DNA from: Meghimatium bilineatum
Taxonomy: Eukaryota; Mollusca; Gastropoda; Stylommatophora; Philomycidae
Assembly: GCA_034231615.1 (NCBI GenBank)
Contig: CM067322.1
Span: forward strand, 57,044,828 to 57,108,827
Direction: 5' to 3'
Length of the DNA stretch: 64,000 bases
Of this stretch, positions 25,701 through 28,700 are shown in pieces. A program made the position numbers and the translations under genes. The notes under the pieces are model-generated. The model did not search any database, was not told the origin of the DNA, and saw nothing but the letters and a program-made list of their open reading frames with translations. Each line of letters starts with the position of its first letter. Within the stretch, counting starts at the first letter, position 1.

Positions 25701-28700
25701 TACCTATTCCTTAACCAACTGTCTAGATACCAAGGCTGTGATGAAACGATTACTTGCGCAATGGTGGCCTGTCAGCATCAGCCTATTAATACGGACTGTG
25801 CTGTTCAAATATTCAAGAAAATGATATGCCAAGCAGTCAGGTAAGACTATGACACCCGTAGACACTGTGATTGTTTGATTGGAGGCGATTAACTAAATAA
25901 TTTGGATGTGAGTGCTTGTTTAATCTATCACACGATTTCACGAGTATGTGCTAACTTTGAGTTGTATGTTTAAGGACATAAATGATAGACGTGTGGTGAT
26001 TTTGGAAAATCTGTTCCGCAGAGAAAGAAACAAAGAGTGTTGACAAATAGTCAAATCTATAATAACATAAAAAAACTTCTCGATGTGACATTCTTTTTAT
26101 GAGCAAAAATATATACACTAATGCACAAGTAATTTTTATTTTTTTTTTGGGGATGGGGGGGGGGGGGGGGAAGAAAGTTACCGTAAAAATCTATCCACTT
26201 CACTTCGGAGGATTTTCGTGCAGAAAGTCAGTATTTTACGTAGTTTTACTGGCGTAAATGTGGGGAAAAGGGGGGGGGAGAAGGTGGCGTGCTATTTTAA
26301 CAATTAATTTTGAGATTATAGAAGTATTAAACACCATGTTCTATTTTTCTGTAAAAAGGGGCTTGGTGGATCACGGCCATAGATAGGGGGTTGGGATTTG
26401 GGATTAGGATTCGCCCTCCCCCCGCATCCAGACTCCCTTAGCAAATCAAAATATGACTTTTAGTACTAGAAACTTACCCAAAATGTTGGCTACGGCAAGC
26501 CAGATTCCTAACGATTTTTCACAAAAACGGCATCAATTTGTTTAAAAACACATTTTTATGTGAAAGTTTTTCAAGATTCCAATACAGTTGTCTCAGTGCA
26601 CCAGTGATATGTTCGTAACTAGTGTAGCGTACTGCAGAATATGTTCTTGCAGTCTGTGCTACCTATTCACATGAACACAGATGTTATGGAACCCGTGTTA
26701 GTCTCTGTAAGTGACTGTTTGGCCTGTAGTGTCCTAGTGCGGGAAATGATAACACGTTCTGCTCTGTCGTTATAGTGTTAGTTGTTTTATGGATGGTAAA
26801 ATTTTCTAATCGCTGTTATGAGCATCCACTTTTCATGGTAAGTGATTTCTTGATAAGTGTTGCAGGCAATGAAAGATCCAAAGAACACGAACATGAATGA
26901 ATTCATGCCCTTCCTACTACACCTAAGCATTACTGCCTCAGAAATATTGTTCGTCAATCACACGTAATGATGACCATTTTTTACATTCACTTTTCAAATT
27001 CAGTTAGATGTGTTCTTACCTATGAGTTCGTAGATCGCTAATAAGCCCTATTTGAGCCGCAAATGTCTTTGGACAGCTTTGACATATGATGACCACTAGA
27101 CTGTTTTTGTCTAGCCGTGACTTTCTAGCTATTCTCCGCTGTTGAACTGCTGCATTTGTCCTTTTCATTTAAGATGATGCACCTTTTTTTGCTGTAGAGC
27201 ACATGTGGATATATTTTATGCACGCTCTTCCCGTGTATATTGGTCTATTTCAAAAGGATTTCAGTGAGTTTATAACGATTCTTGTAGCCCTTCTTTTGGC
27301 CAACGTGATATCGTGTACCCTTCTTCAACTTATCATAGAGAAGTATCTTTGGCAGGCGATGATCTAGTATACATACCAGGATACCTGCTCAATGAATATG
27401 TCTGCATCAGAATAGTGTCAATTGCATGGATTCTCTCCCCACTTCCACCCGTTTATCTACGACCTTTTGTAGAGTACCAAGTTGGTAAATATACTGATTC
27501 ACATGCCTATGCTGAGTCTGGTTATCTGAGCACGATTTAATAGCAGTTACCTGCTCTTCCTGGCACTAAAATGGCATGTGACATTGAAGTGGACAACAAC
27601 ATGAGGCCCTGTACTATAGTTAATATCGTTGACAAATTCGTTCGTCTAATCATTTTTTTCTCGTCATTGTTATCTCTTCTTACACACTCCACACATATCT
27701 CTCACGCACAAGTTCTTTCGAACTAAATGTCGTACTCACACGAAGGTTGGTACATGCAAATATGCACTCCCACACGTACACCAACGTTGGTACATGCGAA
27801 TATGCACTTACACACGAACACGAAGGTTGGCACATGCGAATATGCACTCACACACGAACACGAAGGTTGGCACATGCAAATATGCACTTACACACGAACA
27901 CGAACGTTGGCACCTGCAAATATGCACTTACACACGAACACGAAGGTTGGCACATGCAAATATGCACTTACACACGAACACGAAGGTTGGCACCTGCAAA
28001 TATGCACTCACACACGAACACGAAGGTTGGCACATGCAAATATGCACTCACACATGAACACGAAGGTTGGCACCTGCAAATATGCACTCACACACGAACA
28101 CGAAGGTTGGCACATGCACATATGCACTCACACACGAACACGAAGGTTGGCACCTGCAAATATGCACTCATACACGAACACGAAGGTTGGCACATGCACA
28201 TATGCACTCACACACGAACACGAAGGTTGGCACATGCAAATATGCACACACACACGAACACGAAGGTTGGCACCTGCAAATATGCACTCACACACGAACA
28301 CGAAGGTTGGCACATGCAAATATGCACTTACACACGAACACGAAGGTTGGCACCTGCAAATATGCACTCACACACGAACACGAAGGTTGGTACATGCAAA
28401 TATGCACTCCCACACGTACACCAACGTTGGTACATGCGAATATGCACTTACACACGAACACGAAGGTTGGCACATGCAAATATGCACTTACACACGAACA
28501 CGAAGGTTGGCACCTGCAAATATGCACTTACACACGAACACGAAGGTTGGCACATGCAAATATGCACTTACACACGAACACGAAGGTTGGCACCTGCAAA
28601 TATGCACTCACACACGAACACGAAGGTTGGCACATGCAAATATGCACTCACACATGAACACGAAGGTTGGCACCTGCAAATATGCACTCACACACGAACA

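Follow-up and report, generated by a model that had tools for sequence, protein, structure and literature searches.

The window, that is, the whole 64,000-nucleotide stretch of Meghimatium bilineatum DNA analysed here, contains a gene on its plus strand that, judged from its predicted domains and its closest solved relatives, is RasGRP. The gene model spans exons 2–15 and ends at position 57043; a probable exon 1 lies upstream, outside the model. The 14 modelled exons encode 547 aa with no stop codon, and all their phases are consistent. Pfam searches with the model revealed RasGEF (PF00617, 180.9 bits) and RasGEF_N (PF00618, 31.9 bits in the whole model), and EF hands (PF13202/PF00036) followed by C1 (PF00130) are also present. 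Among the PDB sequences, the model matches 4l9m (RasGRP1, 585 bits, with 67–538 as the best-matching stretch), 6axf (RasGRP2, 329 bits), and 6axg (310 bits), and the next match, 2ije, reaches 90 bits. The later exons were located by a tblastn search of RasGRP1 pieces against the window, and their boundaries were taken from the flanking sequences.

The probable exon 1 was delimited by eye and is unscored. It occupies the best ungapped plus-strand position in the region 1–14472 when compared with N-termini of RasGRP1 and RasGRP2 (score of 34.5, the next position having 20.5), and the phase at its end fits exon 2. A tblastn search of the window with the same N-terminal pieces gave no match to this exon, and its proline-rich stretch has no match in Pfam.

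The features are listed in Table 1. All scores and ranks of splice sites, in the table and in the text, rest on U12 and U2 weight tables that have not been adapted to this species.

Table 1. Features of the RasGRP gene in the window (a slash marks an exon–intron boundary).
Feature	Positions	Strand	Remarks
Probable RasGRP exon 1	13387–13785	+	Pro-rich; donor TCA/GTAAGT; phase 1; boundaries by eye
RasGRP exon 2	14473–14578	+	First part of REM; ends DL(Y); phase 2
Putative U12-type 5' splice site GTATCCTT	14579–14586	+	Sole copy in the window, both strands
Intron 2	14579–25726	+	11,148 bases; U12-type GT-AG by signals; phase 2
Putative U12-type branch site TTCCTTAAC	25707–25715	+	Branch A at 25714; sole copy in the window, both strands
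RasGRP exon 3	25727–25840	+	Phase 2–2
U2-type 5' splice site CAG/GTAAGA	25841–25846	+	As U2 donor, second among 4035 GTs of the plus strand
Intron 3	25841–32859	+	7,019 bases; U2-type by signals; acceptor rank 24 of 3642 as U2
RasGRP exon 4	32860–32991	+	Second part of REM
RasGRP exons 5–15	36103–57043	+	Cdc25/RasGEF, EF hands, C1
Exons 5–9	36103–36256, 39334–39507, 40893–41009, 42770–42867, 43813–43993	+	
Exons 10–15	44941–45021, 46060–46161, 49465–49580, 52991–53129, 54691–54727, 56951–57043	+	

Other elements can be noted around the gene and in its introns. Upstream of the modelled gene, the open frame 5089–5655 on the plus strand matches DUF6451 (PF20049, 34.2 bits) and is perhaps a retrotransposon remnant. 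Intron 2 carries apparent pieces of a non-LTR retrotransposon on the minus strand (16169–17042), with matches to the endonuclease families PF03372 (16515–17042) and PF14529 (16169–16534). Near them are the frame 15441–15692, which has no Pfam match, and an assembly gap of 100 bases (15269–15368), about 700 bases from the donor of intron 2 and far from its acceptor. In intron 3, a tandem repeat with a 40-base unit occupies 27738–29497 in about 44 copies, where a frame of 597 codons is open (27727–29517). A cysteine-rich frame of 105 codons in intron 4 (33155–33469), all of whose Pfam matches are below the curated cut-offs, is probably due to chance. In intron 11, a stop-free plus-strand frame of 382 codons (47414–48559) matches mariner-type transposase (PF01359, 62.8 bits; PF17906, 27.3 bits). 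A search of the window against Rfam gave no matches at the gathering score.

Exon 3 had been picked out in a sequence-only reading of this DNA as a hidden exon of the REM domain. The 114-bp segment is indeed there: AG stands directly before it and GTAAGA directly after it, it is open in the required frame, and it has phase 2 on both sides. The same reading had stated that a direct join of 14578 to 32860 would be in frame and read DLYWIWQF, and this is the case. As for the domain, the RasGEF_N score is 35.0 bits with exon 3, and it falls below the Pfam cut-off of 28.3 bits both when exon 3 is left out (23.6 bits) and when 36 X are substituted (23.2 bits). The score against RasGRP2 (6axf) rises from 35.5 bits without exon 3 to 43.6 bits with it. 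In these comparisons and in the enumeration of candidates given below, exon 4 was two bases too long, which made its last residue wrong and left the comparison unaffected. Exon 3 also supplies the family cysteine located three residues ahead of V-R-Y-W. In an alignment with RasGRP1, 2, and 4, the family residues expected on both sides, Y36 of LYQ and V72–W75 of VRYW, are among the 11 invariant columns. Exon 3 taken alone has no match in Pfam or PDB at E values up to 10, and its codon usage gives no coding signal: of 3899 open windows in the introns, 1591 reach as high a score.

To place exon 3 among its competitors, all frame-keeping AG…GT segments of 24–360 bases between exons 2 and 4 were enumerated. 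There were 6374 pairs of fitting length, 699 of which were open and free of N; 694 were scored for splice sites, and five were dropped, being near the gap or the end of exon 2. Exon 3 ranks first among the 694 by its U2 donor (7.2, common to two longer variants of exon 3) and first by its U12 branch site (14.4). Its full-sequence REM score of 62.0 bits is tied for the top and listed second. By the best single HMM domain, exon 3 is only 321st of 694 (324th of 700 in the ranking that still contained the five and also included the skip product); this low rank can be explained by its insertion, which splits the HMM match. The last nine residues of exon 3 score 10.0, second among 314 distinct donors; the donor at 22306 is better (13.0).

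Could the segment be an open stretch that arose by chance, with the true linking exon elsewhere in the 18 kb? Three segments, 30300–30362, 21201–21263, and 14846–14908, speak for this: their full REM scores (62.0, 61.8, and 61.1, respectively) equal or approach that of exon 3, their single-domain scores (61.8, 61.6, and 60.9) exceed its 40.8, and the neutral codon usage of exon 3 agrees with such a reading. However, their U2 donors (1.6, −3.1, and −4.4, against 7.2) and U12 branch sites (−0.8, −5.8, and 1.0, against 14.4) are far poorer, whereas exon 3 heads both lists of sites and brings the family cysteine before V-R-Y-W. As for other exons between exons 2 and 4, none of the remaining candidates among the 694 ranked unites homology with splice sites. 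We consider a chance stretch extremely unlikely. For exon 3, homology alone is modest, while homology, phase, and sites combined are strong, and we regard the segment 25727–25840 as very probably a true exon of the RasGRP gene.

The splice sites of exon 3 had been called good, which holds for its own donor, GTAAGA, a strong U2 site. The donor of exon 2, on the other side of intron 2, is a poor U2 site (−7.0, rank 2798 of 4035). As a U12 donor, by contrast, CT/GTATCCTT is the best of the 4035 plus-strand GTs (10.5) and fits the U12 5' splice site RTATCCTT; in a longer reading, this donor is CT/GTATCCTTGG. At the other end of the intron, TTCCTTAAC fits the TTCCTTRAY branch consensus, lies 12 bases ahead of the last intron base, and is the best branch site of 3648 plus-strand AGs. 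The 3' end of the intron reads ATTCCTTAACCAACTGTCTAG/. An AG eight bases past the 25727 acceptor has the same branch site but would break the frame. Since shuffled sequences yield 2.1 expected copies of GTATCCTT and 0.7 of TTCCTTAAC, the mere presence of these motifs is unremarkable; it is their placement that is remarkable. Both signals are located exactly at the boundaries that the sequence-only reading had named with no mention of U12. By these signals, intron 2 looks like a U12-type (minor) intron, a point that had been missed.

The other introns differ from it. Thirteen introns were scored, with intron 1 (13786–14472) left out, and in the 12 others the U12 donor scores are from −13.0 to −22.1 and the branch scores from −9.9 to 6.5; by these values, they look U2-type. 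A U12-type intron requires no polypyrimidine tract; the tract before the AG of intron 2 has 14 pyrimidines in 20 positions. As a U2 acceptor, 25727 scores 1.0 (rank 319 of 3642) and is only moderately weak, although 10 of the 13 other acceptors scored are stronger. The donor of intron 2 has T at position −1, and its flank is not AG, which matches the habits of GT-AG U12 introns: two papers state that T at −1 is in excess in these introns (PMC7367187) and that U12 introns avoid an AG flank before the donor (PMC10853781). According to a third source, phase 0 is disfavoured among minor introns, and minor introns show a relative enrichment within molluscs, Octopus sinensis being among the species compared (PMC10639083).

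An exon 3 with a longer 5' end, starting at 25664 or 25691 with a U2 acceptor and the same donor, would be spliced by the major spliceosome. Both starts are open and in frame, and their U2 acceptors (3.0 and 2.1) score above that of 25727 (1.0). But they would have to be joined to the donor of exon 2, a poor site for U2 splicing; their full REM scores are lower (55.6 and 56.7, compared with 62.0), and the U12 branch site, with its exact match, indicates a start at 25727. Such an extension has hardly any probability in our estimate, and the start at 25727 is retained.

The sequence-only reading had further suggested that exon 3 may be a cassette exon skipped in frame. The resulting RasGRP would lack the helix link of its REM domain and so have altered activity. 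Both flanking introns are in phase 2, and the skip product is free of stops in the model. Many exons have symmetric phases. In the skip product, RasGEF_N is below the cut-off. The skip would join 14578 to 32860, and thereby the best U12 donor in the window, ranked 2798 of 4035 as a U2 site, to an acceptor that is 24th among 3642 by its U2 score. The donor and the acceptor of this junction look like different classes, and the cassette exon was rejected as the main reading. Before exon 4, AATCTTGAC does resemble a U12 branch site, but weakly (19 bases from the end, 5.8 bits, rank 70 of 3648). Thus, an in-frame skip of exon 3 appears unlikely because a U12 donor would pair with a U2-like acceptor, and unlikely rather than impossible because of this motif. 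In favour of skipping, RASGRP4 is among the minor-intron genes for which splicing events in lupus neutrophils have been tabulated, although the table entry names no exon and leaves the type of event ambiguous (PMC12637451). Taken together, regular skipping of a cassette exon 3 seems very unlikely.

The reading we prefer, and regard as very likely, is that 25727–25840 is a constitutive coding exon of RasGRP, with a U12-type intron ahead of it and a U2-type intron after it. Exons 2 and 3 would be joined by the minor spliceosome, exons 3 and 4 by the major one. Exon 3 would normally always be included, because the skip that keeps the frame has no well-matched pair of sites. In the protein, exon 3 would encode the last part of one REM helix, then an extended link, and then the first part of the following helix, which runs into VRYW. 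In vertebrate cells with blocked minor splicing, the major spliceosome skips the exons that flank the minor intron (PMC8034651). By analogy with vertebrates, a failure of minor splicing here may be expected to have one of two outcomes: intron 2 is retained, or the major spliceosome skips both exon 2 and exon 3, with a frameshift. In the model, a stop follows after 23 residues if both exons are skipped and after 32 if only exon 2 is. An exon that appeared hidden would look doubtful to splice models tuned to the major class, and a minor intron ahead of it explains why.

Exon 3 had also been described as about 17 residues longer than its vertebrate counterpart and as carrying four cysteines. The excess is present in the alignment with the PDB chains of RasGRP1, 2, and 4, where it forms a 17-residue insertion, but it is less special than it seemed, as the protein is near the length of the Pfam profile. 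In the RasGEF_N alignment, 87 of its residues lie on 83 columns (four over), whereas RasGRP2 has 68 residues on 81 columns, RasGRP1 has 69 on 82, and RasGRP4, which is below the cut-off, has 43 on 56, each being 13 short. The cysteine count needs correction, since exon 3 encodes five: one of them, C69 in the numbering of the joined REM piece, is shared by all four aligned sequences, and the other four are extra.

The cysteine-rich extension has the pattern C-x5-C-x4-C-x-H-x6-C. An AlphaFold2 prediction for exon 3 alone from the single sequence gave helices at residues 5–16 and 22–36, with a pLDDT of 74 for the best of five models and 43–69 for the others; this is weakly in keeping with a fold of two helices and a turn. 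It is conceivable, though quite improbable, that exon 3 is a lineage-specific regulatory unit, in which the extension adds to the REM domain a further helix or a site for metal binding or redox chemistry, and in which the amount of working RasGRP in a cell depends on how fast the minor spliceosome acts on the 11-kb intron 2. If so, transcripts that keep intron 2 or lack exons 2 and 3 would be non-functional. Exon 3 is probably an ordinary, constitutive exon of RasGRP that follows a U12-type intron.

When intron 2 is compared with known GT-AG U12 introns, it is alike in its donor, T at −1, branch distance, and phase 2, and no difference in signals was found. It is long at 11,148 bases, but the lengths of minor and major introns correlate across species, according to PMC10639083. 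None of the titles among the literature matches listed concerns a minor intron in an invertebrate RasGRP. Scanning the collections genome_contigs and viral_contigs, neither of which is meant for animals, with an exon-6 peptide yielded no relative, neither among 88 candidate stretches in the former nor among 8 in the latter.

The vertebrate RASGRP1–4 proteins (RasGRP/CalDAG-GEF) have the same order of domains, i.e., REM, Cdc25, EF hands, and C1. In comparison with them, the protein described here has 17 more residues between LYQ and the VRYW helix and four extra cysteines. In PMC6865273, 100% of RASGRP genes are given as minor-intron genes. In PMC12332006, minor-intron retention was measured in mouse leukaemia cells upon Rnpc3 loss, Rasgrp2 being included, and primers for the U12 intron of RasGrp2 are given. 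The forward primer contains CCTTAAC, and the reverse primer, when reverse-complemented, reads KTCHLV, which is found within VKTCHLVRYW of RasGRP2 (6axf); its counterpart here is KMICQAV. Judged by these primers, the minor intron of mouse Rasgrp2 seems to lie just ahead of the KTCHLV exon, the counterpart of exon 3, a position derived from the primers and not exact to the base. This suggests that the minor intron of RasGRP is old enough to be common to this animal and the mouse.
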